64,000 nucleotides of DNA, from assembly GCF_000069785.1 (NCBI RefSeq), contig NC_010530.1, forward strand, positions 1,544,001-1,608,000. Direction: 5' to 3'. This document shows positions 31,916 to 47,110 of the stretch, in pieces (position 1 is the first letter of the stretch; each line of letters opens with the position of its first letter). The position numbers were made by a program, and so were the translations under genes. The DNA is from Cupriavidus taiwanensis LMG 19424 (lineage in GTDB: Bacteria; Pseudomonadota; Gammaproteobacteria; Burkholderiales; Burkholderiaceae). Under the pieces are notes generated by a model that worked only from the letters and a program-made list of their open reading frames with translations, did no database searches and was not told the DNA's origin.

Positions 31916-34149
31916 GCATCATCGTCGATATCCTGATCCTGGCCGGCGTGCTGCTGGCCATCGTCGCCGTGGTGCAGGTGGCCGCGGCGCGGCTGGTGCT
32001 GCCGGAATCCACGCTGCTGTCGGCCATCGGCATCGCCATCGGCGCCGGCTATGTCGCCATCGACGCCGCCCACCCGGACTTCGCCCGCCACTTCCTGCAT
32101 CCGCTGATCGACCCGGCCTTGCCGCCCGAGGCCTACCTGTGGATTTTCCTGCCGCCGCTGCTGTTCCACGCCGCACTGACCGCCGACGTGCGCGGCATGT
32201 TGCCCGACGCGGCGCCGATCCTGCTGCTGGCGGTGATAGCGGTGGTAGTGGCCACCGGTGTCATCGGCGTGGCCACCGCGGCGGCCAGCGGCATGCCGCT
32301 GGCGGTGTGCCTGCTGCTGGGGGCGGTGGTGGCCACCACCGATCCGGCCGCGGTGATCGCGATCTTCCGCGACGTGGGCGCGCCGGCGCGGCTGATCCGG
32401 CTGGTGGAAGGCGAAAGCCTGCTCAACGACGCCGCCGCGATCGCCATCGTCGGCGTGCTGGTGGCCATGCTGACGGGTCATGGCGCGCAGGCAACGCTGG
32501 CGGCGGGCCTGCGCGAACTGGCGTGGGCCTTTGCCGGCGGGGTGTTGTGCGGCGCGCTGGCCGGCCGGCTGGTGTCCGACCTGCTGCCCCGGCTGGCCGG
32601 GCTGGCCATGGCGGAAAGCGCGCTGACCCTGGCGCTGCCCTACCCGCTCTATCTGCTGGCCGAGCAATTGCTGGGCGTATCGGGCGTGGTCGCGGTGGTC
32701 TGCGCCGGGCTGATGGTCAGCGCGCTCGGTCCCACGCGGCTGGCGCCGCCCAACTGGCGGCACCTGCGCATGATGTGGGAGCAGTTCGCCGGGATTGCCG
32801 GCGCCGTGGTGTTCCTGCTGGCCGCCGTACGCGTGCCTTCGATGCTGGCGGGCGTCACCGGCCATCATGGCTGGCTGTTGCTGGCGCTGGTGCTCGCGGC
32901 GCTGGCGGCGCGCCTGGTGACGCTGTTCGGGCTGCTGCCACTGCTGTCGTGGCTGCGGCTGAGCGCGCCGATCGATGGCGCCTTCAAGCTGGCCATCGCC
33001 TGGGGCGGGCTGCGCGGCGCGGTCACGCTGGTACTGGCGCTGGGCATCGCCGAGAACAGCGACCTGCCCTATGAAACGCGGCATTTCGTCGCCATCCTGG
33101 CCACCGGGTTCGTGCTGGTCAGCCTGCTGCTCAACGGCACCACGCTGCGGGGCCTGATCCACCGGCTGGGCCTGGACCAGCTTTCGCCGCAGGAGCGGGC
33201 GCTGCAGCTGCAGGCAATCCGCCTGTCCACCGAAGAAGTCGAAGCGATGCTGGCGCGCGTGGCCGAATCGTTCGACCTGCCACCCGCGATCGCGCGCGAG
33301 GCGGCGCAGAAGTACCGGCACGGCATCGAGCTGGGCTCGGCGGAATTCGACTTCGACACGGCCCTGTCCGAGCGCGACCGCCTGAGCATCGGCCTGGTCA
33401 CGCTGGCCACGCGCGAGCGCGAGCTGATTCCCGAATACGGCGACGGCGTGATCTCGGTGGCCAACCTCGACGCGATGATGCGCAACACCGCGCAGATGAT
33501 CGACGCGGCGCGCGAACACGGGCGCATCGGCTACAACCGCGCCGCGCGGCATATCCTGGACTATCACCTGGGCTTCAAGGTGGCGCTGTTCCTGCATCGC
33601 CGGCTGGGCTTCGACCGGCCGCTGGCGCGCGCGCTGGCCGACCGCTTTGAATTGCTGATCTGCCGCCAGACCGTGCTGGACCGGCTGCGCCGCTACAACC
33701 GCTCGATGCTGACGCCGGTGTTCGGCGCGCGCATGGCGACGGTGCTCGACGGCGTGCTGGAAGACCGCTCGCGCGCCGCCGCCGAAGGCCTGGCCGACAT
33801 GCGCGGCAAGTTCGGCGCCTATACCGTGGCGCTGGAGCGGCGCCTGCTGATGCTGTTCGCGCTGCGAAAGGGCAGGCTGTCGCTGGAAGCGATGCGCGAA
33901 GAGGCGGTGATTTCCAAGCAAGCGTTCAACCAGATCGCCCAGGTGATCCAGCAGGCGTGGCATGCCAATCTTCAGCGCCCGCCCTTGCGCGGCGTGACGG
34001 ACTACGCGGGCGGGCCCGGCGCGGCGCCGGGCCCGCGGCCGTCAGGAGGGATCCTTGGTGCGGGTACGCGAAACGGCGGCCATGATGCCGATGCCGAGCA
34101 CAATCAGGCAGGCAATGCCGATATAGACCGGCGCCAGCCCGGCCGTTGA
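31912..34149 (+). CDS. CPA1-family Na+/H+ (K+/H+) antiporter with long cytoplasmic tail
   Basis: A 745-residue monovalent cation:proton antiporter. About 12 helices span residues 1-410 with the CPA1 signatures DPAAVIAIFRDVG and EGESLLNDAAAIAIVGVL (ion-binding Asp) and FKLAIAWGGLRGAVTLVLALG. The roughly 330-residue cytoplasmic tail is mostly helical (RLSTEEVEAMLARVAESF...) and may sense pH or regulate the carrier. It starts with an ATGA overlap on the LysR stop. The last 36 codons overlap the oppositely oriented small membrane protein gene and are low complexity (GGPGAAPGPRPSGG), so the true functional end may be earlier. Confidence 0.88.
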   Translation: MSIIVDILILAGVLLAIVAVVQVAAARLVLPESTLLSAIGIAIGAGYVAIDAAHPDFARHFLHPLIDPALPPEAYLWIFLPPLLFHAALTADVRGMLPDAAPILLLAVIAVVVATGVIGVATAAASGMPLAVCLLLGAVVATTDPAAVIAIFRDVGAPARLIRLVEGESLLNDAAAIAIVGVLVAMLTGHGAQATLAAGLRELAWAFAGGVLCGALAGRLVSDLLPRLAGLAMAESALTLALPYPLYLLAEQLLGVSGVVAVVCAGLMVSALGPTRLAPPNWRHLRMMWEQFAGIAGAVVFLLAAVRVPSMLAGVTGHHGWLLLALVLAALAARLVTLFGLLPLLSWLRLSAPIDGAFKLAIAWGGLRGAVTLVLALGIAENSDLPYETRHFVAILATGFVLVSLLLNGTTLRGLIHRLGLDQLSPQERALQLQAIRLSTEEVEAMLARVAESFDLPPAIAREAAQKYRHGIELGSAEFDFDTALSERDRLSIGLVTLATRERELIPEYGDGVISVANLDAMMRNTAQMIDAAREHGRIGYNRAARHILDYHLGFKVALFLHRRLGFDRPLARALADRFELLICRQTVLDRLRRYNRSMLTPVFGARMATVLDGVLEDRSRAAAEGLADMRGKFGAYTVALERRLLMLFALRKGRLSLEAMREEAVISKQAFNQIAQVIQQAWHANLQRPPLRGVTDYAGGPGAAPGPRPSGGILGAGTRNGGHDADAEHNQAGNADIDRRQPGR

Positions 34150-34212: not shown

Positions 34213-34504
34213 GAGTCGGCTCCTTCGGAGGTGCAACCTGTGTTCAATGTAGGCAGCGTGCGCGGCGCGAGGGATAGGACAAGGACGGATGCTGGCGTAG
34301 GCGGGTTCTGACCCGCTTGTGACCTGGCCTGAGAATTTGCGTGACTTGTCAGGTCCTTTGCCGCCGGCGCCTCCGGCCCGCTGTCATGCCCGGCGGCGCG
34401 CGCCTCTGTATCTGTCCGGGTCGCCAGCCGCCTCGTATACTCGCGGGACCGGCGCCGCCGCGCCTCACCGATCCCGAACATCAAACAAGCAACGGAGCAG
34501 CAGC

Positions 34505-35383
34505 ATGCGTGTCGCATTCCTCGGACTGGGCGTCATGGGTTTCCATATGGCCGGGCACCTGGTTGCCAGGGGCCACGAGGTCACCGTCTATAACCGCACC
34601 GCCGCCAGGGCCCAGGCCTGGGTGGACCGGTTCGGCGGCAAATCCGCCGCCACCCCCGCGCAGGCCGTGCGCGATGCGCAGGTGGCCTGCTCCTGCGTCG
34701 GCAACGACGACGACCTGCGCGCGGTGCTGACCGGGCGCGACGGCGCCTTCTTCGGCGCGCCCAGCGGTTGCATCTTTGTCGACCACACTACCGCCAGCGC
34801 CAACGTCGCGCGCGAGCTCTACACGGCGGCCGGCGAACGCGGCCTGCACTTTGTCGACGGCCCGGTCTCGGGCGGCGAAGTGGGCGCGGAAAAAGGCATC
34901 CTGACCATCATGTGCGGCGGCGACGCCGAGGCCTTTGCGCGGGCCGAGCCGGTCATCGCCGCCTACGCGCGCGCCGTGACCCGCATCGGCGAATCCGGTG
35001 CCGGGCAGCTGGCCAAGATGGTCAACCAGATCAGCATCGCCGGCCTGATCCAGGGCCTGTCCGAGGCCATTGCCTTCGGCGAGCGCGCGGGCCTGGACAT
35101 GCGCCTGGTGCTGGACGTCATCAGCAAGGGCGCGGCCGGTTCCTGGCAGCTGGAGAATCGCGGCCCCACCATGATCGACAACAAGTTCGACTTTGGCTTC
35201 GCGGTGGACTGGATGCGCAAGGACCTTGGCCTGTGCCTGGACGAAGCCCGCCGCAACGGCGCCAGCGTGCCGGTCACCGCGCTGGTGGACCAGTTCTACG
35301 CCGACCTGCAGCAGATGGGCTGTGGCCGCGCCGACACCTCATCGCTGATCAAGCGGCTGCGCCAGCACAGCGATAAGGCGTGA
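34505..35383 (+). CDS. 3-hydroxyisobutyrate dehydrogenase-family NAD(P)-dependent oxidoreductase
   Basis: A 292-residue beta-hydroxyacid dehydrogenase. The dinucleotide fold is FLGLGVMGFHMAGHL, then VDHTTASANVARELY, the substrate loop DGPVSGGEVGAEKGILTIMCGG and the catalytic Lys in GAGQLAKMVNQ. The C-terminal all-alpha domain has WQLENRGPTMI and FAVDWMRKDLGLCLDEA. The family includes 3-hydroxyisobutyrate, tartronate semialdehyde and glyoxylate/succinic semialdehyde reductases; which one cannot be decided from the sequence. It stands alone, with no valine- or glycolate-pathway neighbours. Confidence 0.88.
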   Translation: MRVAFLGLGVMGFHMAGHLVARGHEVTVYNRTAARAQAWVDRFGGKSAATPAQAVRDAQVACSCVGNDDDLRAVLTGRDGAFFGAPSGCIFVDHTTASANVARELYTAAGERGLHFVDGPVSGGEVGAEKGILTIMCGGDAEAFARAEPVIAAYARAVTRIGESGAGQLAKMVNQISIAGLIQGLSEAIAFGERAGLDMRLVLDVISKGAAGSWQLENRGPTMIDNKFDFGFAVDWMRKDLGLCLDEARRNGASVPVTALVDQFYADLQQMGCGRADTSSLIKRLRQHSDKA

Positions 35384-35532: not shown

Positions 35533-35709
35533 ATGTGGAAACTCGCAGGCGCGCTTCTGGTAGGCGCAAGCATGGCGCTGGCCGGCTGTACGGCGGCGGG
35601 CGCGGTAGCCGGCGGTGTCGCCGGGCATGAACTGACCGACGGCAGCACCGCCGGCACCGTCGGCGGCGCCGTGGTGGGTGGCGTGATCGGCCACGAGCTG
35701 GGCAAGTGA
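35533..35709 (+). CDS. Small glycine-zipper lipoprotein (OsmB-like)
   Basis: A 58-residue lipoprotein. The signal peptide ends in the lipobox LAGC (Cys 19), followed by a glycine-zipper repeat (GAVAGGVAGHE, GTVGGAVVGGVIGHELGK) of the kind found in OsmB/SlyB-like 2TM proteins. It is probably anchored in the outer membrane and may respond to envelope or osmotic stress. ACGGAGACC precedes the ATG. A strong terminator follows at 35728. Confidence 0.78.
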   Translation: MWKLAGALLVGASMALAGCTAAGAVAGGVAGHELTDGSTAGTVGGAVVGGVIGHELGK

Positions 35710-35774: not shown

Positions 35775-36608
35775 CTAAGTGGTGTGGCCTGACGCGGGCC
35801 CGCCCGAAGACCGGCGCAAGCGCCGCCACAGCAGCGCCGGCAAGCGCACCACGAAGCCGGCCAGCAGGCGCAGGTGCATGCCGGTCAGCAGCAGGTTGTC
35901 GCGCAGGTAGCGGAAGTGCGAGACCCCACCCTCGCGCCGGTCGAAGTAGCGCACCGGGGCGTCCAGGTTGAGCGGACGCACGCCGCGCCAGCACAGCCGC
36001 ACGGCCACCTCCGGATCGAAATCGAAGCGCCGCATCCAGCGGCTGTCCTGCATCACCGCACGCAGCGGCGCGATCGGGTAGACGCGGAAGCCAAACAGCG
36101 AATCGCCGATGCCGGCCCACAGCGTCTCCACGTCCACCCACAAATTCGACATGCGCCGCCAGTAGACCCGTTCGCGCGGGGCACTGGCGTCGAAGCGCGG
36201 GCGGCCCAGCACCATCGCGTTGGGATTGCGCCGCGACACCGCCATGAAGTCCGGAATGAGTTGCGCAGGATGCTGGCCGTCGGAATCCATCACCAGCACA
36301 TGGGTGTAACCCGCCGCCTCGGCCCGCTCGATGCCATGCAGCACCGCGGCGCCCTTGCCCTGGTTGCTCGGCAGCACCAGCACCTGCAGCCCGGGATCGG
36401 CGGCGGCCTGCGCCTGCAGCCACTCGGTGCTGCCATCGGTGCTGCCGTCGACCACCACCCATACCGGAGTCCAGGCCGCGCGCGCGCCGCGCAGCACCTC
36501 GTGCAGGCGCACGCCGGGGTTATAGCTGGGGATCAGCACCAGGTGGGTGGCCGAAGGCTCGGCGCCGCCTGCCACCAGCGCCGGCGCGGGCGTGGCTTGC
36601 TGCGGCAT
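35775..36608 (-). CDS. GT2 glycosyltransferase of the aryl-polyene-like locus
   Basis: A 277-residue family 2 glycosyltransferase. The GT-A core has HLVLIPSYNPG, the DxD-like VLVMDSDGQHPAQLI, and a C-terminal acceptor region (RYFDRREGGVSHFRYLRDN). Aryl polyene loci encode a similar GT, often fused to the acyltransferase that here is a separate gene at 39674. It would glycosylate the polyketide product or its lipid anchor. It is 39 bases downstream of the ACP gene in a two-gene leftward operon, divergent from the rest of the locus. The sugar donor is unknown. Confidence 0.85.
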   Translation of the reverse strand: MPQQATPAPALVAGGAEPSATHLVLIPSYNPGVRLHEVLRGARAAWTPVWVVVDGSTDGSTEWLQAQAAADPGLQVLVLPSNQGKGAAVLHGIERAEAAGYTHVLVMDSDGQHPAQLIPDFMAVSRRNPNAMVLGRPRFDASAPRERVYWRRMSNLWVDVETLWAGIGDSLFGFRVYPIAPLRAVMQDSRWMRRFDFDPEVAVRLCWRGVRPLNLDAPVRYFDRREGGVSHFRYLRDNLLLTGMHLRLLAGFVVRLPALLWRRLRRSSGGPASGHTT

Positions 36609-36647
36609 GTCGTGGTCCTGTCCGTGCTGAAGGAAATGGTGACCGGG

Positions 36648-36908
36648 CTAGCGCGTGCGATGTTCCGCCAGGTAGGCGGCCAGGCTGCCCAGTGAAGTGA
36701 AGATGGTCTTGTTGTCCGGGTTGTCCGAGCGCAGCTCGACGCCGTACTTGCGCGATACCAGCAGGGCGATCTCGAGGATGTCGATGGAATCGAGCCCGAA
36801 GCCTTCCCCATAGAGCGGCGTGGCGGCGTCGATGTCCTCCAGCCGCAGTTCGGCGATGTCGAGTTCGTCGAGGATCAGGCGGGCAAGTTCGGTTTCGAGT
36901 TCGGTCAT
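36648..36908 (-). CDS. Acyl carrier protein of the aryl-polyene-like locus
   Basis: An 86-residue ACP. The phosphopantetheine site is GEGFGLDSIDILEIALLV, with Ser 41. Strongly acidic helices surround it. The sequence around the Ser (GLDSIDILE) is typical of ACPs of aryl polyene and xanthomonadin systems rather than of housekeeping AcpP (GADSLDTVE). The upstream extension of the open frame (to 37046) lacks a start signal and would be atypical, so the ATG at 36906-36908 is used. Aryl polyene systems usually have two ACPs; only this one is present here. Confidence 0.88.
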   Translation of the reverse strand: MTELETELARLILDELDIAELRLEDIDAATPLYGEGFGLDSIDILEIALLVSRKYGVELRSDNPDNKTIFTSLGSLAAYLAEHRTR

Positions 36909-37173
36909 GTTGCAAAATGGCTGAAACGCCGCTGCGCCGGCCGTGCCGGGCAGTTCAAATCCCGGTGCGGACGTCGGGCACCCGAATGCTATCAAACGGG
37001 GCATTCCCGGGCCAGTCGAGAGAAGTTTAGTAACAACATCAATCACCTATTCGGGAATCATCATCGCGCCCTGAGGGTCTTTTGGGGTATAAAGCGTTCG
37101 CTTCGCGTGCCGCCGGGCCATTATCCGGCGCGGCCCGCGCTAAGCGACTTACGCAACACACCAACTCCCACCG

Positions 37174-37908
37174 ATGCCTTCGAGCCAGCCCGTTGACCGC
37201 TTTTCTCCGCCCGCCCCAGGGGCTTTGACCGCGCCGGACGCCGCAGTCCCGTCGTGGCGGCGCCATGCCTGGATCGGCGCGGTGGCGGGTTTCGTGGTCT
37301 ACGAATCGGCGCTGCATCGCGCGGCCCATCACCCGGGGGCCGAGGTGACCGCGCTGGCGCTTGGCGCGGCGCCGTTCCTGCTGATCGGCTTCGTCGCCTG
37401 CCGCCGCCTGGCGGGTCGCGTCCCGGCGCTGCTGGCGCTGCTGGCCGCATGCGCCGCGCTGTGGTTCTGGCGCGCACCGCTGGCCAGTCATTTCGGCTGG
37501 ACCTACTACCTGCAGCATGTGGGCGCCAATGCCGCGCTGGGCGCGATGTTCGCGCTCAGCCTGCGCCGCGGCCGGACCCCGCTCTGCACGCAGATCGCCA
37601 CGGTCATCCATGGCACGCTGTCGGCGGCGCATGCGCGCTATACCGTGCGCGTGACCCAGGCCTGGACCCTGTTCTTCGCCGCCATGGCGGGCGTCTCGAC
37701 CCTGCTGTTCGTGCTCGCGCCGGTGGCGGCGTGGTCCAGTTTCGCCAACCTCGCCACGCCGCTGCTGATCGCGCTGATGTTCGCGGGCGAGGCCGTGTAC
37801 CGCCGCATCGCCTTTCCGGCCATGCGCCACGGCGGCCTGCTCGACGCGGTGCATGGCTATCGCGCGCTCATGACGGACCGTGCGGCCCGGCCCGGGCTGC
37901 CGCGCTGA
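37174..37908 (+). CDS. Integral membrane protein of the aryl-polyene-like locus (COG4648-like)
   Basis: A 244-residue membrane protein with about six hydrophobic helices after a Pro-rich cytoplasmic N terminus (WIGAVAGFVVYESAL; FLLIGFVAC; LLALLAACAALWFW; TLFFAAMAGVSTLLFVLAPVAA; LLIALMFAGEAVYR). Aryl polyene loci carry a protein of this design (ApeG-like, COG4648) directly before the AMP ligase, as here. The molecular role is not established; it may act in membrane assembly of the synthase or in export. It starts the rightward operon. Confidence 0.75.
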   Translation: MPSSQPVDRFSPPAPGALTAPDAAVPSWRRHAWIGAVAGFVVYESALHRAAHHPGAEVTALALGAAPFLLIGFVACRRLAGRVPALLALLAACAALWFWRAPLASHFGWTYYLQHVGANAALGAMFALSLRRGRTPLCTQIATVIHGTLSAAHARYTVRVTQAWTLFFAAMAGVSTLLFVLAPVAAWSSFANLATPLLIALMFAGEAVYRRIAFPAMRHGGLLDAVHGYRALMTDRAARPGLPR

Positions 37909-37958
37909 GGCGCCGGCATCCTCTCCCCGGCACCGCGACCCGCGCACAGGTTCCGTCC

Positions 37959-39680
37959 ATGTCCACGCTTCCCCTCGTCGCCCACGCCACGCCCGACGAT
38001 CTCATCGCCTGGGCGCACGGACGGCCTGTCACCGTGCGGCAATTCTTGGCCGATGCAACCCGCCTCGCGGCCGCGCTGCCGGCTGGCGGCCATGTATTCA
38101 ACGCCTGCGCCGACCGCTACCGCTTCACCGTCGGGCTGTGCGCGGCGCTGCTGGCGGGCAAGCCGACGCTGTTGCCGCCTTCGCACACGCCCGAGACGGT
38201 GCGCCAGCTGCTTGCCTTCGCGCCCGACGCCTTCTGCCTGCACGACCAGCCCGATGCGGCCTTCGACATGCCGGCGATGCAGTACCAGGATGTCCCGGCG
38301 GCCACAGCGGCGCCCGGCCCGGTCGAGATCCCGCGGATTCCGGCGGCGCAGGTCATGGCCTACGTGTTTACGTCCGGATCCACCGGCACGCCGGTGCCGC
38401 ACCGCAAGACCTGGGGCGCCATGGCCGGCTGCGCACGCGCCGCGGCGCAACGGCTCGGCCTGCTCGACGGCAGGACGTGGACGCTGGCCGGCACGGTGCC
38501 ACCGCAGCACATGTTCGGCCTCGAAGCCACCGTCATGCTGGCGCTGCAGGGACGCGCGGCGCTGGTGGCCGCGCCGGCGTTCTATCCGGCCGATGTCAGT
38601 GCCGCACTGGCGGCGGTGCCGGCGCCGCGCGCGCTGGTCAGCTCGCCGGTGCACCTGCGCACGCTGGTGCAGTCCGGCCTGGCCATGCCTGCGGCCGACC
38701 TGGTGCTGTGCGCCACCGCGCCGCTGGGCCGCGAGCTGGCCGCCGATGCCGAGGCACTGTTCGCCGCGCCGCTGTGCGAGATCTACGGCAGCACCGAGAC
38801 CGGACAACTGGCCACCCGCCGCACCGCCCGGGAAGACGCCTGGACCCTGGTGCCAGGGGTACGGCTGCAGGCCCGCCCCAACGCCGCCGGCGACGATACC
38901 GAAACCTGGGCAGAAGGCGGCCATATCGAGCAGCCGGTGCCGCTGGGCGACGCGATCGCGCCGCTCGACGCGCAGCGCTTCCTGCTCCATGGGCGCAAGG
39001 CCGACCTGCTCAACATCGCCGGCAAGCGGACTTCGCTGGGCTACCTGAATCACCAGCTCACCGCGATAGACGGTGTGCGCGACGGCGCGTTCTTCATGCC
39101 GGATGACGCGCATGAAGGCGACGCGCATGGGCACGTGGTGCGCCTGGTGGCCGTGGTGGTCGCCCCGGGCCTGACGCCGGCCCGCTTGCAGCAGGCGCTG
39201 CGCGAGCGGATCGACCCGGCCTTCATGCCGCGCCCGCTGTACTTTGCCGACCACCTGCCGCGCAATGCCGCGGGCAAGCTGCCGCGCGAAGCGCTCGCCG
39301 CGCTGGTGGCAAGGCTGTCCGCCCCGCGGCCGCGCCATCCCGCGCCTGCGCCGGACTTTGTCATCGACACTGGCCACCCTGCCATGGCCGGTCACTTCCC
39401 GGGCCGCCCGATCGTGCCGGGCGTGGTGCTGCTGGACCATGCGGTGCTGGCGCTTGGGGCCGCGCGGGGCCGCCCGCTTGCCGTCGCGCAGGCAAGCATG
39501 CTGAAGTTCCTGAGCCCGGTGCGCCCGGGCGAACGTGTCGAGGTGCTGCACCAGTCCGAGGCGGCAGGCGATGGCGGCGAGACCATCCGCTTCACGCTGC
39601 GCAGCGCCGGGCGCGATGTCGCCAGCGGCACGCTGCAGGTACGCGCCAACGTGCCGCAAGCCGGAGCGTTGCCATGCTGA
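37959..39680 (+). CDS. AMP-dependent acyl/aryl-ACP ligase fused to a FabZ-like dehydratase
   Basis: A 573-residue fusion. Residues 1 to about 450 are an adenylate-forming enzyme with P-loop FTSGSTGTPVPHRKTW, the A5-type EIYGSTETG and the A8/A10 region LLHGRKADLLNIAGKRTSLGYL and NAAGKLPRE. Residues about 460-573 are a hotdog dehydratase with DTGHPAMAGHFPGRPIVPGVVLLDHAVL; the catalytic His is kept, and the usual Glu is Asp. In aryl polyene systems the ligase (ApeH-like) loads an aromatic starter acid on ACP and the dehydratase (ApeI-like) acts on hydroxyacyl-ACP; these are normally two genes. The ATG at 37959 follows the membrane protein by 50 bases. Confidence 0.9.
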   Translation: MSTLPLVAHATPDDLIAWAHGRPVTVRQFLADATRLAAALPAGGHVFNACADRYRFTVGLCAALLAGKPTLLPPSHTPETVRQLLAFAPDAFCLHDQPDAAFDMPAMQYQDVPAATAAPGPVEIPRIPAAQVMAYVFTSGSTGTPVPHRKTWGAMAGCARAAAQRLGLLDGRTWTLAGTVPPQHMFGLEATVMLALQGRAALVAAPAFYPADVSAALAAVPAPRALVSSPVHLRTLVQSGLAMPAADLVLCATAPLGRELAADAEALFAAPLCEIYGSTETGQLATRRTAREDAWTLVPGVRLQARPNAAGDDTETWAEGGHIEQPVPLGDAIAPLDAQRFLLHGRKADLLNIAGKRTSLGYLNHQLTAIDGVRDGAFFMPDDAHEGDAHGHVVRLVAVVVAPGLTPARLQQALRERIDPAFMPRPLYFADHLPRNAAGKLPREALAALVARLSAPRPRHPAPAPDFVIDTGHPAMAGHFPGRPIVPGVVLLDHAVLALGAARGRPLAVAQASMLKFLSPVRPGERVEVLHQSEAAGDGGETIRFTLRSAGRDVASGTLQVRANVPQAGALPC

Positions 39681-40648
39681 GCTGGCTGTGGCGGCGCCAG
39701 GCGCCGCTGGATGCGGAATGGTCCAGCCGCGAAGAGCGCGGCAGCATCACGCTGCTGCGCGTCATGACGTGGATCTCGCTGGCGCTGGGCCGGCCCGCCG
39801 GGCGCGTGGTGCTGCGGGCCATTGCCGCCTACTTCATGCTGTTCGCGCCGGCGGCACGCCATGCGTCGCGCGCGTACCTGGACCGCGTGCTGGGACGCCA
39901 GGCCGGCTGGAGCGACGGCTACCGCCATGTGTTTACCTTCGCCTCGACCATCCACGACCGCATCTACCTGCTCAACGGCCGCTTCGACCTGTTCGACATC
40001 CGCCTGCATGGCGAGCAGCAGCTCGAAGCCGCGATGGCGCGCGGCCGCGGCGCCATCCTGCTGGGCGCGCACCTGGGCAGTTTCGAGGTGGTGCGCGCGC
40101 TCGGCCGGCGCCACCCCGAGATGGAGGTGGCGATCACCATGTACGAAGAAAACGCGCACAAGCTCAACGACGTGCTGCAGTCGATCAATCCGGCGATGCG
40201 CCAGGACGTGATCGCGCTGGGCCGCTTCGACACCATGCTGCGCGTGCGCGACTACCTGGACCGCGGCTACATGATCGGCATGCTGGCCGACCGCACGCTG
40301 TCGCAGCGCGCCACCGACCCGGTGCAGCAGTGCGATTTCCTCGGCGCGCCGACGGGCTTCCCCACCGGCCCGCTGCGCATGGCGGCCATGCTGCGGCGGC
40401 CGGTGTTCTTTATCACCGGCCTGTACCGCGGCGGCAACCGCTACGACGTCCATTTCGTGCCGCTGGCGGACTTCACCGACACCGCGCGCGGCCAGCGCGA
40501 AACCGCGGTGCAGGCTGCGCTGGCGGACTACGTGCGGCTGCTGGAGCGGTTCAGCCGCAGCGCCCCGTACAACTGGTTCAACTTCTATGACTTCTGGCAC
40601 GCCGGCCCGCCGCTGTCCGAGCAGCCGCCGCCTGGCAACGAGCCCTAA
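39674..40648 (+). CDS. Lipid A acyltransferase-like protein (LpxL/HtrB superfamily) of the aryl-polyene-like locus
   Basis: A 324-residue acyltransferase. It has the H-x4-E motif in ILLGAHLGSFEVVRAL and the second family block YMIGMLADRTLSQRATDPVQ, with an N-terminal membrane anchor (LGRPAGRVVLRAIAAYFMLFAP). In aryl polyene loci this domain is often the partner or fusion of the GT2 and is thought to transfer the polyene acyl chain onto a lipid or sugar carrier. It overlaps the ligase-dehydratase by 7 bases, so tight coupling is expected. The acceptor is unknown. Confidence 0.88.
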   Translation: MLSWLWRRQAPLDAEWSSREERGSITLLRVMTWISLALGRPAGRVVLRAIAAYFMLFAPAARHASRAYLDRVLGRQAGWSDGYRHVFTFASTIHDRIYLLNGRFDLFDIRLHGEQQLEAAMARGRGAILLGAHLGSFEVVRALGRRHPEMEVAITMYEENAHKLNDVLQSINPAMRQDVIALGRFDTMLRVRDYLDRGYMIGMLADRTLSQRATDPVQQCDFLGAPTGFPTGPLRMAAMLRRPVFFITGLYRGGNRYDVHFVPLADFTDTARGQRETAVQAALADYVRLLERFSRSAPYNWFNFYDFWHAGPPLSEQPPPGNEP

Positions 40649-40665
40649 CCCGTGAGCCGCCACTG

Positions 40666-41292
40666 ATGTTTTTCTTTGCGCGCCCTTTCCGCTATCTGTC
40701 GTCGACCCTGCTGGCGAGCGCCCTGCTTGCGCTGGCGCCGCTGACGGCCAAGGCCGCACCCGCTGCGCCGGCCGCCAACGCCGCGTTCGGCGTCGACCAG
40801 CTGATGTCCACGCTGGCCCAGCGCAAGTCCGGGCGCGTGCTGTTTACCGAGACCAAGTACCTGGCACTGCTCGACAAGCCGGTGCAGTCCTCGGGCGAAC
40901 TGCGCTTCACCGCGCCCGACCACCTCGAAAAGCGCACCCTCTCTCCCAAGGCGGAAAACCTGGTGCTGGACGGCGACATGCTGACCGTCGAGCGCGACGG
41001 CAAGCGCTACACCATGCCGCTGCAAAACTACCCGGAGATCGCGGCCTTTATCGAGAGCATCCGCGCCACGCTGGCCGGCAACCGCGATGCGCTGGAGCGC
41101 TACTACAAGCTGGGCGTGGAAGGCCGTGCCAGCCGCTGGACGCTGACGCTGACGCCGGCGGATTCGCGCATGGCCGCGGCCGTCAGCCAGGTGCGTATCG
41201 AAGGCAGGCAGGATGTGCTGGACCAGGTCGAGATCCGGCAGGCCGACGGTGACCGTTCGGTGATGAAGATCCGGCCGGCCGCGAACCGATGA
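40666..41292 (+). CDS. LolA-like outer membrane lipoprotein carrier protein of the locus
   Basis: A 208-residue periplasmic protein with a signal peptide (LLASALLALAPLTAKAAP) and the LolA-like fold signature (LMSTLAQRKSGRVLFTETKYLALLDKPVQSSGELRFTAPDHLEK, then LVLDGDMLTVE). LolA relatives in polyene and xanthomonadin loci are thought to ferry the lipid-like product across the periplasm to the outer membrane, working with the MMPL exporter encoded next. It overlaps that gene by 4 bases (ATGA). Confidence 0.86.
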   Translation: MFFFARPFRYLSSTLLASALLALAPLTAKAAPAAPAANAAFGVDQLMSTLAQRKSGRVLFTETKYLALLDKPVQSSGELRFTAPDHLEKRTLSPKAENLVLDGDMLTVERDGKRYTMPLQNYPEIAAFIESIRATLAGNRDALERYYKLGVEGRASRWTLTLTPADSRMAAAVSQVRIEGRQDVLDQVEIRQADGDRSVMKIRPAANR

Positions 41293-43703
41293 GCGCGGCA
41301 CCGCGCCGCCTGGCGCTGGCGCTGTGGGTGATGGCGCTGCTGGCTTGCGCCGCGGTCGTCAGCCGCACCACCTTCACCGCCGACCTGTCGGCCTTCCTGC
41401 CGCGATTGCCCAGCGCCGAGCAGCAGTTGCTGGTGGACCAGCTGCGCGACGGGCTGGTATCGCGCCTGATCCTGGTCGGCATCGAGGGCGGCGATGCCGA
41501 GGGCCGCGCCCGGGTCTCGCGCGCGATGGCGGCGCAACTGCGCGGCGACCGCCGCTTCGCCTCGGTGCAGAACGGCGAGCCGGTCAACCAGGCGGCGGAC
41601 CGCGAATACGTGTTCGCGCACCGCTACCTGCTCAGCCCCGAGGTCACGCCGGAGCGTTTCACCGAACACGGGCTAGCGCGGGCGGTGAATGATTCGTTCG
41701 CGCTGCTGGCCTCTTCCGCCGGGCTCTTCACCAAGTCATTGCTGCCGCGCGATCCCACCGGCGAGGTCGCGGCGATGCTGGCGCAGCTCGATGCCGGCCA
41801 GCGCGTGCCGATGCATGCGGGCGCGTGGGCATCGCGCGACGGCAAGCGCGCGCTGCTGCTGGCGCAGACCGCCAGCGCCGGCTCGGATACCGATGCGCAG
41901 GCAGAGGCGATGGCCGCCGTGCAGCAAGCCTTTGCCACCGCCAACGCGGGCGGCCCCTACCAGCTGGTGATGACGGGACCCGGCGTGTTCTCGGTCAAGG
42001 CGCGCGACACCATCCGGCACGATGTCGAGCGGCTCTCGACCATCGGGCTGGCCATCATCGTCACGCTGCTGCTGGCGGTGTACCGCTCGGTACCGCTGCT
42101 GGTGCTTGGGCTGGTCCCGGTGCTCAGCGGCGCGCTGGCGGGCATCGCCGCGGTCAGCCTGGGTTTTGGCGGTGCGGTGCATGGCCTGACGCTGGGCTTC
42201 GGCACCACGCTGATCGGCGAGGCGGTGGACTATTCGATTTACCTGTTCGTGCAGTCCGCGCAATACACGCGCAACGGCCAGCGCGACGAACGCGCCTGGC
42301 TGGGCGGCTTCTGGCCGACGGTGCGCCTGGGGGTGCTGACTTCGGTCTGCGGCTTTGCGTCGCTGCTGCTGTCGGGCTTTCCGGGACTGGCGCAGCTGGG
42401 CCTCTATTCGATCGCGGGACTCGCCACCGCCGCGCTGGTCACGCGCTTCGTGCTGCCGCAGCTGGTCCCGGCCACGCTGCATCTGCGCGACGTCGCGCCG
42501 CTCGGCCGCAAGCTGCAATGGCTGACGCTGCGGGCGCCCCGTCTGCGCTGGCTAGTCGTGCTGCTGGTGGCGGGCGCCTGCGTGGTGCTGGCCCAGCACC
42601 GCGGCACGCTGTGGGGCCGGGAACTGCAGGCGCTGAGCCCGGTATCGGCGAGCGACCAGGCGTTGGATACCTCGCTGCGCGAAAACCTGGGCGCCCCGGA
42701 CGTGCGCTACCTGGTGGTGGTGTCGGGGCCGGACCAGGAATCCGTGCTGCAGGGCGCGGAACGCGTGGCGCATGAACTGGAACCGCTGGTGGCGCAAAAC
42801 TTTATCGGCGGCTACGAGAGTCCGGCCCGCTATCTGCCCAGCGCGGCCACCCAGCGCGAACGCCAGGCCAGCCTGCCGCCGCCCGACGTGCTGGCACAGC
42901 GCCTGCATGCCGCCATCGCCACGCAGCCGGTGCGCGCATCGGTGTTCGCCCCCTTCCTGGCACAGGCCGAAGCGGCCCGCACCGGGCCCCTGCTGCAGCG
43001 CGAGAGCCTGCGCGGCACGTCGATGGCACTGGCGGTCGACGCCCTGCTGGTGCAGCGCACCGGGCGCTGGAGCGCCACGCTGCCACTGCGCGCGCCGGTG
43101 CATGCGCAAAACCATGCCGGCGCGGCCGACGGCGTCGACAGCGCCGCGGTGCGTGCCGCGATCCAGCGCGCCGGCGTGCCCGAGACCCTGTTCGTGGATC
43201 TGAAGGGCGAATCGGACCGGCTCTATGCCGGCTACCTGCGCGAGGCCTTGCTGCTGTCGCTGGCCGGACTGCTGGCCATCATCGCCCTGCTGGCCGTGGC
43301 TTTGCGCTCGCCGCGGCGGGTGGTGGCGACGGTGCTGCCGCTGGCCGCCGCCGCGGTGGTGGTGCTGGGCGGGCTGGCGGCGCTGGGACAGCCGCTGACG
43401 CTGCTGCACCTGGTGGGCCTGCTGCTGCTGGCAGCGGTCGGCTCCAACTACGCACTATTCTTTAATGGCCCGGCAGCGGACGGCCAGGCGGCCGGCGCTT
43501 CACCGCATACGCTGGTGTCGCTGCTGCTGGCCAACCTGACCACGGTGGCCGCGTTCGGCCTGCTGGCGCTGTCGAGCCTGCCGCTGCTGAAGGCATTCGG
43601 CCTGACAGTCGGCCCCGGCGCCGTGCTGGCGCTGTGGTTTTCGGCCATCCTCGCGCCCGCGGCCTCGCCCGCGGCAGCGGCGAAGGCCGGGAGTGCAACA
43701 TGA
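41289..43703 (+). CDS. MMPL/RND-superfamily exporter of the locus
   Basis: An 804-residue transporter with two repeats. Helix 1 (LALALWVMALLACAAVV) is followed by a large periplasmic loop, then a helix bundle with GFGTTLIGEAVDYSIYLFVQSAQ, which carries an acidic residue in the proton-relay position. The second half repeats this (LLLLAAVGSNYALFFNG) with a clearly degenerate relay site. MMPL proteins export lipidic products; in this locus it should move the polyene lipid to the periplasmic LolA-like carrier. Start and stop overlap both neighbours by 4 bases. Confidence 0.88.
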   Translation: MSAAPRRLALALWVMALLACAAVVSRTTFTADLSAFLPRLPSAEQQLLVDQLRDGLVSRLILVGIEGGDAEGRARVSRAMAAQLRGDRRFASVQNGEPVNQAADREYVFAHRYLLSPEVTPERFTEHGLARAVNDSFALLASSAGLFTKSLLPRDPTGEVAAMLAQLDAGQRVPMHAGAWASRDGKRALLLAQTASAGSDTDAQAEAMAAVQQAFATANAGGPYQLVMTGPGVFSVKARDTIRHDVERLSTIGLAIIVTLLLAVYRSVPLLVLGLVPVLSGALAGIAAVSLGFGGAVHGLTLGFGTTLIGEAVDYSIYLFVQSAQYTRNGQRDERAWLGGFWPTVRLGVLTSVCGFASLLLSGFPGLAQLGLYSIAGLATAALVTRFVLPQLVPATLHLRDVAPLGRKLQWLTLRAPRLRWLVVLLVAGACVVLAQHRGTLWGRELQALSPVSASDQALDTSLRENLGAPDVRYLVVVSGPDQESVLQGAERVAHELEPLVAQNFIGGYESPARYLPSAATQRERQASLPPPDVLAQRLHAAIATQPVRASVFAPFLAQAEAARTGPLLQRESLRGTSMALAVDALLVQRTGRWSATLPLRAPVHAQNHAGAADGVDSAAVRAAIQRAGVPETLFVDLKGESDRLYAGYLREALLLSLAGLLAIIALLAVALRSPRRVVATVLPLAAAAVVVLGGLAALGQPLTLLHLVGLLLLAAVGSNYALFFNGPAADGQAAGASPHTLVSLLLANLTTVAAFGLLALSSLPLLKAFGLTVGPGAVLALWFSAILAPAASPAAAAKAGSAT

Positions 43704-44548
43704 AGCCGCTATTCGCACCGGGCGTTGCCGTGCCCGGGCGCCCTCCCAGCCGCCCATGGCGGCCCACCCCGCTGCTCTATGGCGCCGCCGCGGTGCATGT
43801 GGGCGCCGTCGGCGCGATGCTCGCTTATCCGCAAGGCCTGGGCTGGGGCCTGGCCGGCATCGGCGCATCCCATGTCGCGATGTGCGCGGCCGGCCTGTGG
43901 CCGCGCAGCACCTGGCTCGGCCCCAACCTGCTGCGCCTGCCGCCATCCGCCGAGGGCTGCGTGGCGCTGACCTTCGACGATGGCCCCAACCCGGACCTGA
44001 CGCCGCAGGTGCTCGACCTGCTCGACCAGCACGGCGCCAGCGCGACGTTTTTCTGCATCGGCGAGCGCGCCGCGGCGCATCCCGAACTGGTGCGCGAGAT
44101 CGTGCGCCGCGGCCACGCCGTGGAAAACCACAGCATGTACCACCGGCTGCACTTCTCCACGTTCGGGCCCGGCCGCATGCAGCGCGACATCGCCGCCGCG
44201 CAGCAGGTGCTGGCGGAGATCACCGGCGAGGCGCCGCGCTTCTTCCGCGCTCCGGCGGGGCTGCGCAACCCCTTCCTGGAGCCGGTCCTGTGCCGCCTCG
44301 GGCTGCAACTGGCGGCCTGGACCCGGCGCGGCTTCGATACCCTGAACGGCAACAACGCCGCGCGCGTGGCGCGGCGCCTGTACGGCACGCTGGCCGCGCG
44401 CGACATCCTGCTGCTGCATGACGGCAACCCCGGCCTGGACCCTGCCGGCCAGCCCCATTGCACCACCGTGCTGCCGGGCCTGCTCGCCGCCATCGACCGC
44501 GCCGGCCTGCGCTGCGTGACGCTGCGCGCAGCGGTGCCGCCGGCCTGA
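43700..44548 (+). CDS. Polysaccharide deacetylase-family protein (CE4/NodB domain) with N-terminal helices
   Basis: A 282-residue protein. Residues 30-85 hold two hydrophobic helices (LLYGAAAVHVGAVGAMLAYP and GWGLAGIGASHVAMCAAGLW), then a CE4 domain with VALTFDDGPNPDLTP (metal Asp pair), HAVENHSMYHRLHFST (metal His residues), RFFRAPAGLRNPF (catalytic Arg/Pro loop) and ILLLHDGN with the active-site His. It is a complete, probably active deacetylase, facing the periplasm or cytoplasm depending on topology. CE4 enzymes are not a standard part of the aryl polyene loci I know; it could deacetylate the sugar added by the locus's GT2. Confidence 0.86.
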   Translation: MKPLFAPGVAVPGRPPSRPWRPTPLLYGAAAVHVGAVGAMLAYPQGLGWGLAGIGASHVAMCAAGLWPRSTWLGPNLLRLPPSAEGCVALTFDDGPNPDLTPQVLDLLDQHGASATFFCIGERAAAHPELVREIVRRGHAVENHSMYHRLHFSTFGPGRMQRDIAAAQQVLAEITGEAPRFFRAPAGLRNPFLEPVLCRLGLQLAAWTRRGFDTLNGNNAARVARRLYGTLAARDILLLHDGNPGLDPAGQPHCTTVLPGLLAAIDRAGLRCVTLRAAVPPA

Positions 44549-44613
44549 GCCGGCGCCGCTTGTTACAATTGGCGCTGCCTTCCGAGAATCCTTCCATTCG
44601 CCTCACCGAAGCT

Positions 44614-45816
44614 GTGTCCCCGCTCCTGTTCTCGCATTTCACCGCCACCAGCTGCCTCGGCGCCGGCATCGACGCCACGCTGGCCGCGCTGCGCGCGCAG
44701 CGCGGCGGCCTGGCGCCGTGCCAGTTCGGCGATGTCGCCCTCGATACCTTCGTCGGCGAAGTTGACGGCCTCGACGCCGTCACGCTGCCAGCCGGGCTGT
44801 CAGAGTTCGACTGCCGCAACAACCGGCTGGCGCAGCTGGCCCTGGAGCAGGACGGCTTTGCCGCACGGGTACGCGAGGCGGCGGCGCGCTACGGCGCCCA
44901 CCGCATCGGTGTCTTTCTCGGCACCAGCACCGCGGGCGTGCTGCAGACGGAACTGGGCTATCGCCAGCGCGATCCGGCCAGCGGCGCGCTGCCGCCGGAC
45001 TTCCACTATGGCGGCACGCACAACCCCTATTCGCTGCCGGCGTTCCTGCGGCAGCAGCTGGGCCTGTCAGGGCCGGCCGCGGCGGTATCGTCGGCGTGTT
45101 CGTCGGGGGCCAAGGTGTTCAGCTCGGCCCGGCGCATGCTGGAGGCCGGGCTGATCGACGCGGCCGTGGTGGGTGGCGTGGATTCGCTGTGCCACACCAC
45201 GCTGTACGGCTTCAATGCGCTGGAGTTGTTGTCGCGGCAGCCGTGCCGGCCCTACGACGTGGCGCGCAACGGCATCTCGATCGGCGAAGGCGCGGCGTTC
45301 GGCCTGCTCGAACGCGTGACCGGCCCGGTGGCGGACGATGCCATCCTGCTCGCGGGCATCGGCGAATCGAGCGACGCGCACCATATGTCGACGCCGCACC
45401 CGCAAGGGCTGGGGGCGCGCATGGCGATGGCGCAGGCACTGGCCGGCGCTGGCATCGCGCCGGCGCAGGTCGGCTACGTCAACCTGCACGGCACCGCCAC
45501 GCGCAGCAACGACGCTGCCGAAGCCCTGGCCATGGCGGCGGTGCTGCCCGGCACGCCGTGCAGCTCGACCAAGGGCGCCACCGGCCATGCGCTCGGCGCG
45601 GCCGGCGCGCTCGAGGCGGTGATCTGCGCGCTGGCGCTGCGCCATGGCCTGGTGCCGGCCGGCATCAACACCGCGCAGGTCGACCCCGCGCTCGACGTGA
45701 ACTACCAGCTCGCCAACCGGGACACGCCCTTGCGCTACGCCATGAGCAATGCGTTCGGCTTCGGCGGATCCAACTGCAGCCTGCTGTTCGCCCGTGCGGA
45801 CGCGGTTGCTCACTGA
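44614..45816 (+). CDS. Beta-ketoacyl-ACP synthase (KAS II type) of the locus
   Basis: A 400-residue ketosynthase. The catalytic triad is complete: Cys in AAVSSACSSGAKVF (about C162), His in YVNLHGTATRSND and His in STKGATGHALGAAG. The start is taken as the GTG at 44614 (SPLLFSHFTATSCLGAG), because the only ATG in frame (44458) lies inside the deacetylase gene and adds a charged, unlike-family N terminus. No clear Shine-Dalgarno is seen, so the start is uncertain. It extends the aryl or acyl starter with malonyl-ACP units together with the chain length factor encoded next. Confidence 0.9.
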   Translation: MSPLLFSHFTATSCLGAGIDATLAALRAQRGGLAPCQFGDVALDTFVGEVDGLDAVTLPAGLSEFDCRNNRLAQLALEQDGFAARVREAAARYGAHRIGVFLGTSTAGVLQTELGYRQRDPASGALPPDFHYGGTHNPYSLPAFLRQQLGLSGPAAAVSSACSSGAKVFSSARRMLEAGLIDAAVVGGVDSLCHTTLYGFNALELLSRQPCRPYDVARNGISIGEGAAFGLLERVTGPVADDAILLAGIGESSDAHHMSTPHPQGLGARMAMAQALAGAGIAPAQVGYVNLHGTATRSNDAAEALAMAAVLPGTPCSSTKGATGHALGAAGALEAVICALALRHGLVPAGINTAQVDPALDVNYQLANRDTPLRYAMSNAFGFGGSNCSLLFARADAVAH

Positions 45817-45825
45817 GCCAGCGCC

Positions 45826-46638
45826 ATGTCGCAGCCCGTTTATATCGAAAGCATCGGCCTGCTCGGCCCTGGCCTGACCGGCTGGCAGCAAGCCAGCGCC
45901 GTGCTCGCGGGGCGCACGCCCCACGCGCACGCGGCCACCGAGCTGCCGCTGCCCGCCGGCCTGCCGCCGGCCGAGCGACGCCGCACCGGCCCGACCGTCC
46001 GGCTGGCGCTGGGCGTGGGCCAGCAGGCGGTGGCAGCGAGTGGCCGCGATGCCGCGACGCTGCCGACGATCTTTACCTCATCCAGCAGCGATGGCCATAA
46101 CTTCCATGCCATCTGCGAAGCGATGGCGCAGCCCGAGCCGCTGATGTCGCCCACGCGCTTCCACAACTCGGTGCACAACGCGACCGCCGGCTACTGGTCG
46201 ATCGCCGCCGGCGCGATGCGCGCCTCGAACGTGCTGTGCGCGATGGACGGCAGCTTTGGCGCGGGGCTGCTGGAAGGCACGCTGCAGGTGGCCGCCGACG
46301 ACGAGCCCTGCCTGCTGATCGCCTATGACACCGGCTATCCGGAGCCGCTGCATAGTTGTCGGCCGATTCCCGATCCGTTTGGCGTGGCCCTGCTGCTGAC
46401 GCCGCAACCGAGCGCGCGCGCGCTGGCGCGCATCGCCGTGACGCTGACGCAGGCGCCAGCCAGCACGATGCCAGACGCCGCGCTGGAAGCGCTGCGCAAG
46501 TCGGCCCCGGCCGCGCGCGTGCTGCCGCTGCTGGCGGCCATCGCCCGCGGCGAGACCGGCACGGTGGTACTGGATTATCTGGACACGCTGAGGATCGAAG
46601 CCGACGTGGCCAGCCTGGGCAGCCACGCGCATGCCTGA
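45826..46638 (+). CDS. Ketosynthase-like chain length factor
   Basis: A 270-residue, shortened KAS-like protein. The segment corresponding to the catalytic Cys reads NATAGYWSIAAGAMRASNVL with no Cys, and the C-terminal half of the thiolase fold is reduced. This matches the beta-ketoacyl synthase chain length factor family (ApeC-like), which forms a heterodimer with the active KS and sets chain length. It follows the KS gene by 10 bases and overlaps the dehydratase gene by 8. The call rests on family resemblance, length and position. Confidence 0.86.
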   Translation: MSQPVYIESIGLLGPGLTGWQQASAVLAGRTPHAHAATELPLPAGLPPAERRRTGPTVRLALGVGQQAVAASGRDAATLPTIFTSSSSDGHNFHAICEAMAQPEPLMSPTRFHNSVHNATAGYWSIAAGAMRASNVLCAMDGSFGAGLLEGTLQVAADDEPCLLIAYDTGYPEPLHSCRPIPDPFGVALLLTPQPSARALARIAVTLTQAPASTMPDAALEALRKSAPAARVLPLLAAIARGETGTVVLDYLDTLRIEADVASLGSHAHA

Positions 46639-47110
46639 ACAGATCAGGGACCGCGCCTGGATCGCGGCGCGCATTCCGCATCAAGGCAGCATGTGCCTGC
46701 TCGACGCGGTGGTGGCATGGGATGCGGCATCGGTGCGCTGCACGGCAACCAGCCATACGCACGCGGATAACCCCTTGCGCGCGCAGGGCCGGCTGGCAGC
46801 GGTGTGCGGTATCGAATATGCCGCGCAGGCCATGGCCGTGCATGGCGCCCTGCTGGCCGAGGCCGAGCCGGAATGCGGCGCGCCGCAGCGCCCGCGCACG
46901 GGCTACCTTGCCAGCGTGCGCAAGCTGGTGGTGCAGGCAGAGCGGCTCGACGATATCGCGGCGCCGCTGGAGGTCGCGGCCGAGCGCCTCAGCGGGGAAG
47001 GCGCCACCGTGCTCTACGCTTTTGTTGTCAGCGCCGCCGGGCGTACGCTGCTGTCGGGCCGCGCGGCGGTCATCCTCGATGCCGCCGCGCTTGGGGATGA
47101 CGCCGGCTGA
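46631..47110 (+). CDS. ApeP-like hotdog 3-hydroxyacyl-ACP dehydratase
   Basis: A 159-residue hotdog-fold protein. The family start RIPHQGSMCLLDAVVAWDAASVRC and the central helix GIEYAAQAMAVHGALLA carry the catalytic His and Glu/Gln positions seen in ApeP/FabZ-like dehydratases of aryl polyene systems. With the dehydratase fused to the ligase, the locus has two dehydratases, as in E. coli ape. It is the last gene before the converging fumarylacetoacetase gene. No 3-ketoacyl reductase gene follows, although loci of this type normally have one in this position. Confidence 0.84.
   Translation: MPEQIRDRAWIAARIPHQGSMCLLDAVVAWDAASVRCTATSHTHADNPLRAQGRLAAVCGIEYAAQAMAVHGALLAEAEPECGAPQRPRTGYLASVRKLVVQAERLDDIAAPLEVAAERLSGEGATVLYAFVVSAAGRTLLSGRAAVILDAAALGDDAG

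Follow-up and report, generated by a model that had tools for sequence, protein, structure and literature searches.

A xanthomonadin/arcuflavin-type gene cluster without its own ketoreductase in Cupriavidus taiwanensis and its likely dependence on a relic of a second aryl polyene cluster

The described gene clusters closest to the locus studied here are those for the pigments arcuflavin and xanthomonadin. Arcuflavin clusters encode one acyl carrier protein (ACP), one ketosynthase (KS) with one N-terminal-KS protein, a polysaccharide deacetylase, and, in the gene list given as Table 1 of PMC3949708, no thioesterase. Mutants in the KS and the ligase of the Azoarcus arcuflavin cluster are described there as colorless. 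For xanthomonadin clusters, PMC8253772 describes the second ACP as absent and reports that deletion of a thioesterase gene reduced pigment only partly. In the account of PMC8358021, ApeO–ApeC alone gave fully elongated polyene, with ApeR, the second KS of the canonical aryl polyene (ape) clusters, raising throughput. Here we examine a block of eleven genes at positions 35775-47110 of a 64,000-nucleotide stretch of C. taiwanensis LMG 19424 (the window; C3:1544001-1608000 of genome G000, where C3, the second large replicon, is a 2.5 Mb contig of a 6.48 Mb genome in three contigs).

By its genes, this locus is a xanthomonadin/arcuflavin-type aryl polyene cluster, a variant without a ketoreductase (KR) of its own. 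It probably makes an aryl polyene lipid of that type, with the KR step performed in trans by an ApeQ-type KR encoded at C3:2427000-2427728, 0.84 Mb away on the same replicon, in what appears to be the relic of a formerly complete ape cluster. As such, the locus is ordinary and its type is widespread in the family; the new part is the likely dependence of the locus on the relic of another cluster. Our literature search, whose scope left aside preprints and most subscription journals, found no report of such sharing of ApeQ.

A first-pass annotation of the window had proposed the locus as the strongest candidate there for an undescribed biosynthetic system, a view that does not stand, because arcuflavin provides a close characterized gene set that matches it apart from the KR and tailoring genes. 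That annotation also expected a KR, a second KS, a second ACP, and a thioesterase. We searched the locus and about 5 kb on either side at E 1e-4 with proteins from A. baumannii, Azospirillum, and Cedecea, and found none of the four; the second ACP (ApeF) and thioesterase (ApeK) of canonical ape clusters had no match there. Their absence is thus confirmed, but three of the four were never part of the xanthomonadin/arcuflavin type and only the KR is truly missing. The idea that the second KS, second ACP, and thioesterase were lost was rejected, since the compared clusters of this type have none. A single ACP, a single KS, and no thioesterase are ordinary here in view of the Azospirillum, arcuflavin, and xanthomonadin comparisons and of what PMC8253772 and PMC8358021 describe. 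Likewise, the KS with a truncated chain length factor, the ligase and two dehydratases, and the glycosyltransferase, acyltransferase, LolA, exporter, and deacetylase genes all fit the type. The departure from it is the dedicated KR, which is not inside the cluster. ApeR, the marker of canonical ape clusters, had no match in G000 at E 1e-110; among PF00109 matches in this genome, the KS of the fab cluster and that of the window are far ahead of the next (E 7e-8).

The missing ketoreductase and the distribution of ApeQ

In relatives from the same family, the KR gene lies between the ACP and GT2 glycosyltransferase genes (for example L046, L076, L051, L054, L058, and L133-L136). From the window and its close kin this gene is cleanly gone. 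Comparison with L076 and L046 and the gene maps show that the ACP-GT2 junction in the window is 39 bp long (36609..36647, minus strand) and holds no KR of the xanthomonadin type (xan KR). Nor could the missing genes be found beyond a misread boundary, as had been considered: the neighbors are fahA/hmgA on one side, and a 58-amino-acid putative lipoprotein and a hydroxyisobutyrate-dehydrogenase-like gene on the other, with no KR. No xan KR was found elsewhere in G000, where the best of 47 short-chain dehydrogenase/reductase (SDR) matches to it (112 of 112 candidates scored) is 48% identical and is the relic ApeQ itself.

Other reductases were considered as substitutes. The next-nearest SDR (C1:1855267, 48% identical to xan KR) matches an acetoacetyl-CoA reductase model (355 bits, cut-off 302) and has F148 and Y185, and an SDR in the window at 56950-57684 (41% identical) matches the model for BadH, 2-hydroxycyclohexanecarboxyl-CoA dehydrogenase (475 bits, cut-off 431). 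Both were rejected; R148 is absent from each, as is a Leu, Ile, or Val at position 185. The neighboring hydroxyisobutyrate-dehydrogenase-like gene (34319-35383, convergent with the GT2 gene) may be a substitute reductase. It was matched beside the KR-less loci L042, L043, L044, L073, and L075, and had no match beside the KR-less L045, L047, and L048 or the KR-bearing L046, L074, and L076, stretches of which the last three may end too soon.

We surveyed 299 genomes of the family, which we take to be Burkholderiaceae in view of the nearest named proteins, all from Cupriavidus, with presence/absence sets taken from search tables. A xanthomonadin-type KS was counted when it matched the window KS at E 2.7e-142 or better (at least 61% identity), plus G079 (76% over 235 residues). 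Thresholds were E 1e-72 for xan KR and ApeQ and E 1e-110 for ApeR; all cut-offs were of our own choosing. The top nine candidates per genome were scored for xan KR and ApeQ and the top six for KS and ApeR, with up to 64 scored outside the family and in a re-check of G158. By these measures 118 of the 299 genomes have the KS, 79 of them with a xan KR and 39 without. The KR-less genomes comprise 17/24 in the genus of the window, 14/15 in genus g24 (which we take to be Ralstonia and which in this respect resembles the window), 4/17 in g20, 3/3 in g16, 1/1 in g17, and 0/58 in others. ApeQ is present in 38/39 KR-less vs 34/79 KR-bearing genomes, and ApeR in 12/39 vs 34/79. ApeQ without ApeR occurs in 26 of the 39 KR-less genomes and in none of the 79 KR-bearing ones; among genomes lacking ApeR this amounts to 26/27 vs 0/45 (Fisher p 1e-18, a test that ignores kinship). 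As a comparison, ApeQ without ApeR was seen in 5 of the 181 genomes that have no xanthomonadin-type KS (G039, G050, G054, G149, and G179).

One explanation for the missing KR is that the locus is decaying and makes no product, its loss being the first step. The missing gene itself would agree with this, as would the lack of a match in the locus to an Azospirillum-type methyltransferase. Against it, all eleven open reading frames (ORFs) are open and the eleven genes have dN/dS values of 0.065-0.31 in comparisons with five Cupriavidus genomes. In addition, the KR-less loci form clades of several genomes on a KS tree. We examined 31 of the 39 KR-less loci and all 31 match the KS, chain length factor, ApeP, ligase, acyltransferase, LolA, MMPL, and CE4 genes. 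In these 31 there was no xan KR; other SDRs of 33-39% identity occur in two of the stretches (L047 and L077). No ACP match was obtained in L078 or in the truncated stretch L121, and L047, L048, and L073 gave none for the COG4648-like gene. Because the KS type occurs in 118 of the 299 genomes and because of these dN/dS values, the locus is not a chance assembly. Decay is a very improbable account of it.

To allow for kinship, we used a KS tree (INDEPENDENCE) of 66 rows, made up of 65 of the 118 genomes, including all 39 KR-less ones, and Azospirillum. This is a quick tree that carries a warning on two long branches, G251 and Azospirillum. On it the KR state changes seven times, with five of the changes forced by starred branches. 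The 41 rows lacking ApeR provide four independent contrasts on starred branches and five on all branches. In 200 random pairings, all four contrasts agreed in 182, three agreed and one showed no difference in 18, and none was opposed. These data bear on the alternative that the relic ApeQ and the FAD gene paired with it are kept for a different pathway, the link to KR-less loci reflecting shared ancestry. The pair does sit apart from the locus, and the 26 cases include many close relatives. However, the complete absence of relic ApeQ from the 45 KR-bearing genomes lacking ApeR, the recurrence of KR absence, and the different forms of the relic between lineages make this explanation improbable.

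The relic FAD-ApeQ pair and reduction in trans

The relic ApeQ passes the FabG2 model (379 bits, cut-off 339), and its Arg patch and Leu185 are present. It is 62% identical to A. baumannii ApeQ and 93% and 92% identical to the ApeQ of full ape clusters in G237 and G255, respectively. At E 1e-60 it has four matches among solved structures, including 7caw and 7czc; we take 7caw/7cax to be ApeQ. Preceding it is an FAD gene (L097:8656-9906, on C3 of G000 and outside the window) that matches Trp_halogenase (89 bits, cut-off 21) and shares 56% identity with its counterpart in the ape cluster of A. baumannii. Its product contains WYWTIP, presumably typical of flavin halogenases, and could act on the aryl head group by halogenation or hydroxylation. 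Other ape genes had no match at E 1e-6 within about 10 kb of the relic. A 78-amino-acid ApeR-like match (33%, E 1e-5) about 5 kb away in L097, with a similar one in L101, is antisense to a regulator-like ORF in L097 and was taken as chance rather than as an ApeR remnant.

The sister genomes G237 and G255, both KR-less, have a full ape cluster at the site of the relic, with FAD and ApeQ genes 92-93% identical to those of the relic. The flanks are common to the relic and both clusters, with PIP (plus GST in G255) on one side and DNA 86-87% identical on the other. These shared flanks point to decay of an ape cluster in place. In the full clusters ApeO and ApeP lie between the FAD and ApeQ genes, so that, if the full cluster is ancestral there, three separate stretches were lost and exactly two genes were spared. 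In g24, the relic of G043 and a full ape cluster of G121 have collinear flanks that are 96-97% identical, with ApeQ only 81% identical (L105 vs L179, L183, and L184). This suggests that recombination also adds and removes ape clusters at this site. One genome, G123, carries an eroded FAD-ApeQ pair (L118) together with an ApeR-containing ape cluster on a different contig (L181).

We examined 17 of the 26 relic ApeQ loci. The FAD gene adjoins ApeQ in nine of them, one of which, in G098, also has an ApeG-like match (41%); beyond these, the 17 loci gave only an aromatic lyase match (31%, L115) and an SDR match (32%, L114). The form of the relic varies by lineage, occurring as FAD-ApeQ, as ApeQ-FAD, as ApeQ alone, and as an ApeG-like remnant with FAD-ApeQ. 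For the relic ApeQ of G000, dN/dS is 0.026 and 0.047 against G249 and G045, two other relic holders, 0.105 against G281, and 0.144-0.157 against copies in full clusters. By dN/dS, then, selection maintains the relic as well as the locus.

We aligned 14 reductases. ApeQ and the lost xan KR type have R148 and R174 in common and are both aliphatic at 185 (Leu in ApeQ; Ile or Val in xan KRs). Both also have R130, apart from the relic of G017, which has Lys. According to PMC8041823, the substitutions L185F, R148A, and R174A each lower the activity of A. baumannii ApeQ. PMC9542644 describes the rescue of xanthomonadin production in a xanC mutant of Xanthomonas by AcpP4, an ape-type ACP from R. solanacearum. 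The shared residues, the mutant data of PMC8041823, and the AcpP4 complementation make it plausible that ApeQ serves a xanthomonadin-type ACP, and we infer that it acts on the ACP of the locus.

The enzyme roles and their order can be inferred from the named families. The ligase would load an aryl acid onto the single ACP and the KS with its chain length factor would extend the chain with malonyl units. In each cycle the keto group would be reduced in trans by the relic ApeQ, and the two dehydratases would form the double bonds. The acyltransferase, GT2, and deacetylase would join the chain to a (glyco)lipid, with outward carriage by LolA and MMPL. In this scheme, ApeQ and its FAD partner would be all that is left of a complete ape cluster, the xan KR presumably having been lost while that cluster was intact and the cluster having then decayed with ApeQ kept. 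Both dehydratases are conserved in the locus and, as noted in the first-pass annotation, need a substrate supply from outside it. The same observation bears on the possibility that, without a KR gene in the locus, the product keeps its keto groups and is not a polyene. With two dehydratases that need hydroxyacyl substrates and an ApeQ encoded in the genome, such a product seems scarcely credible.

Several observations weigh against a dependence on ApeQ. The contrasts are few, and once kinship is allowed for the sign test gives p 0.125 at best and cannot reach 0.05. Over all 66 rows, KR absence and ApeQ presence agree in an average of 3.1 of five contrasts, with opposite pairs in a few of the 200 pairings. 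One KR-less genome of the family, G158, has no ApeQ at E 1e-55; its nearest tree rows have the relic, and its assembly is a draft in 290 contigs with 97% completeness. Weak homologs could be missed among the six or nine top candidates scored per genome. We also searched 260 genomes of the order (thresholds outside the family: KS E 1e-95, xan KR E 1e-62, and ApeQ E 1e-55), of which 45 have the KS, 42 of them outside the family. A xan KR is present in 36 of these 42 (54-68% identical), and ApeQ had no match above 51% in those 36, the matches being the xan KRs themselves. The other six (G307, G319, G332, G428, G456, and G502) have neither KR type at these thresholds, and their loci have no KR within about 8-10 kb. 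These six must use another reductase, or else make a different product. Among the residues, the FabG of G000 shares R130 and R174 with ApeQ, and xan KRs have Gly at position 12 where most ApeQs have an Arg at the NADPH site. Finally, the FAD-ApeQ pair may be kept for another function.

The six loci outside the family also bear on an alternative in which housekeeping FabG carries out the keto-reduction and the relic ApeQ plays no part in it. FabG had been suggested earlier as the supplier; it is encoded in G000, and the six loci suggest that another reductase can apparently serve. FabG is a possible supplier, but we favor the ApeQ-type KR kept elsewhere on this replicon. In the experiments described in PMC8041823, very little polyene was formed with A. 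baumannii FabG, and the enzyme showed no binding to holo-ACP1 in vitro. The FabG of G000 has Pro148 and Phe185, and reduction by FabG leaves unexplained why ApeQ outlived the ape cluster in 26/27 KR-less vs 0/45 KR-bearing genomes. We consider this alternative unlikely.

Together, these data support dependence of the locus on ApeQ within the family, where co-occurrence and synteny make it likely; outside the family it is not universal. More generally, we think it probable that two co-resident pigment clusters share one KR and that, after loss of its own KR, the locus depends on ApeQ, so that decay of the ape cluster must spare ApeQ alone, in many cases along with the FAD enzyme. This would have happened several times in the family and would leave orphan enzyme genes that cluster-by-cluster mining does not link to their pathway. 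Were this so, a cluster that looks broken would be complete at the level of the genome and a seemingly meaningless orphan reductase would have a job. It would also be a case of recurrent natural cross-talk between two biosynthetic clusters that limits how each can decay. For compact or KR-less aryl polyene clusters, the whole genome should be searched before new chemistry is claimed.

The eleven genes of the locus and their neighbors

The annotated layout of eleven genes in two divergent groups was upheld. Two genes are on the minus strand and nine on the plus strand, diverging from 36909-37173, and profile searches and BLAST agree with the gene names. On the minus strand are the arcE-like GT2 gene (35775..36608; PF00535, 67 bits; 67% identical to the GT2 of an Azospirillum cluster) and the single, arcV/xanC-like ACP with an LDS phosphopantetheine motif (36648..36908; PRK09184, 136 bits, cut-off 70). 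The ACP is 52% identical to the Azospirillum ACP and 41% to A. baumannii ApeE.

The plus strand begins with a COG4648-like membrane protein in the ApeG/arcU position (37174..37908; 41% over 117 amino acids to an Azospirillum protein), which matches A. baumannii ApeG weakly (27%, E 3e-7). It is followed by an AMP-dependent aryl-acid ligase fused to a hotdog dehydratase (37959..39680; arcT plus arcS, ApeH plus ApeI-like; PF00501 and PF13193, motif GHFPGRPIVPG), 48% identical to the Azospirillum ligase and 45% to the separate dehydratase of that cluster. Next are a lipid A-type, arcR-like acyltransferase (39674..40648; PF03279, Lip_A_acyltrans), an arcQ-like LolA-like periplasmic carrier (40666..41292; PF19574, LolA_3), an arcP-like MMPL exporter (41289..43703; PF03176), and an arcN-like CE4 polysaccharide deacetylase (43700..44548; PF01522, Polysacc_deac_1, 112 bits; 49% to Azospirillum).

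The ApeO/arcK-like KS has a GTG start (44614..45816; PRK09185, 545 bits, cut-off 407), and its active-site Cys and two His residues align. It is 96% identical to entries labeled C. taiwanensis, C. nantongensis, and C. alkaliphilus, and its best solved structures, 7f28_B and 6qsp_A, are ApeO-ApeC complexes. The truncated, ApeC/arcJ-like chain length factor (45826..46638; PF13723) has 6qsp_B and 7f28_A as its sole structure matches at E 0.01. Last is an ApeP/arcI-like dehydratase (46631..47110; 56% to the Azospirillum protein, supported by alignment). This protein and the COG4648-like protein matched no Pfam model at E 0.001 and were named by likeness to the Azospirillum cluster. The motifs of the KS, ACP, both dehydratases, and deacetylase align with their ape and Azospirillum counterparts, and we take these motifs to have the corresponding catalytic roles.

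The starter may be 4-hydroxybenzoate formed via UbiC, which G000 encodes. A XanB2-type chorismatase was sought with PF21168, which had no match in G000; control genomes were silent as well. The aromatic lyase of G000 was ruled out as a tyrosine lyase for the starter, being a histidine ammonia-lyase by model.

The putative lipoprotein next to the locus is glycine-rich (35533-35709) and lies between the end of the GT2 gene and the hydroxyisobutyrate-dehydrogenase-like gene. Farther out, ARAGORN called a 97-base tRNA-Ala at 32860-32956 within an Na/H exchanger ORF, which is probably false.

Comparison with known systems

Canonical ape clusters are a separate type (L066-L071 and L085), and ApeR occurs in 105 of the 299 family genomes. 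Like the locus, the ape clusters of E. coli CFT073, A. baumannii, and X. doucetiae are described as having a KS:chain length factor pair, a ligase, two dehydratases, LolA, and MMPL (PMC8253772, PMC8041823, PMC8358021). They differ in having ApeR, a second ACP, a thioesterase, and the KR ApeQ all in the cluster. A CE4 gene was not matched in L082, L085, and L088, and one lies just past the chain length factor in the ape stretches L067 and L069. A third, smaller type (L061, L064, and L080) has only an ACP, dehydratase, KS (48-51% identical), chain length factor, ApeP, and KR; neither an AMP-ligase nor an exporter was matched nearby. A plasmid of Variovorax paradoxus VAI-C encodes a KS 52% identical to that of the window (L084:11001-12173), with no pigment genes annotated around it.

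The xanthomonadin (pig/xan) clusters and the pig-like acpP2 cluster of R. solanacearum share with the locus a single pigment ACP in the description of PMC9542644. There, R. solanacearum AcpP2 complements xanC, and no xanB2 homolog is reported in R. solanacearum.

The arcuflavin (arc) clusters of Azoarcus sp. BH72, as described in PMC3949708, have in common with the locus the ACP, arcU, ligase, dehydratase, acyltransferase, LolA, exporter, polysaccharide deacetylase, KS, N-terminal KS protein, second dehydratase, and glycosyltransferase. According to the same source, they differ in having a KR (arcH), a chorismatase, a halogenase, and a methyltransferase, and in being split over two loci and combined with a DAR cluster. 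A plasmid cluster of Azospirillum ramasamyi (L083) has the gene order of the locus from the ACP to ApeP, including CE4, with a KS 59% identical, and like the locus it has one ACP, one KS, and no annotated thioesterase. It differs in having a FabG-type KR right after ApeP, together with a methyltransferase and a halogenase-like FAD gene.

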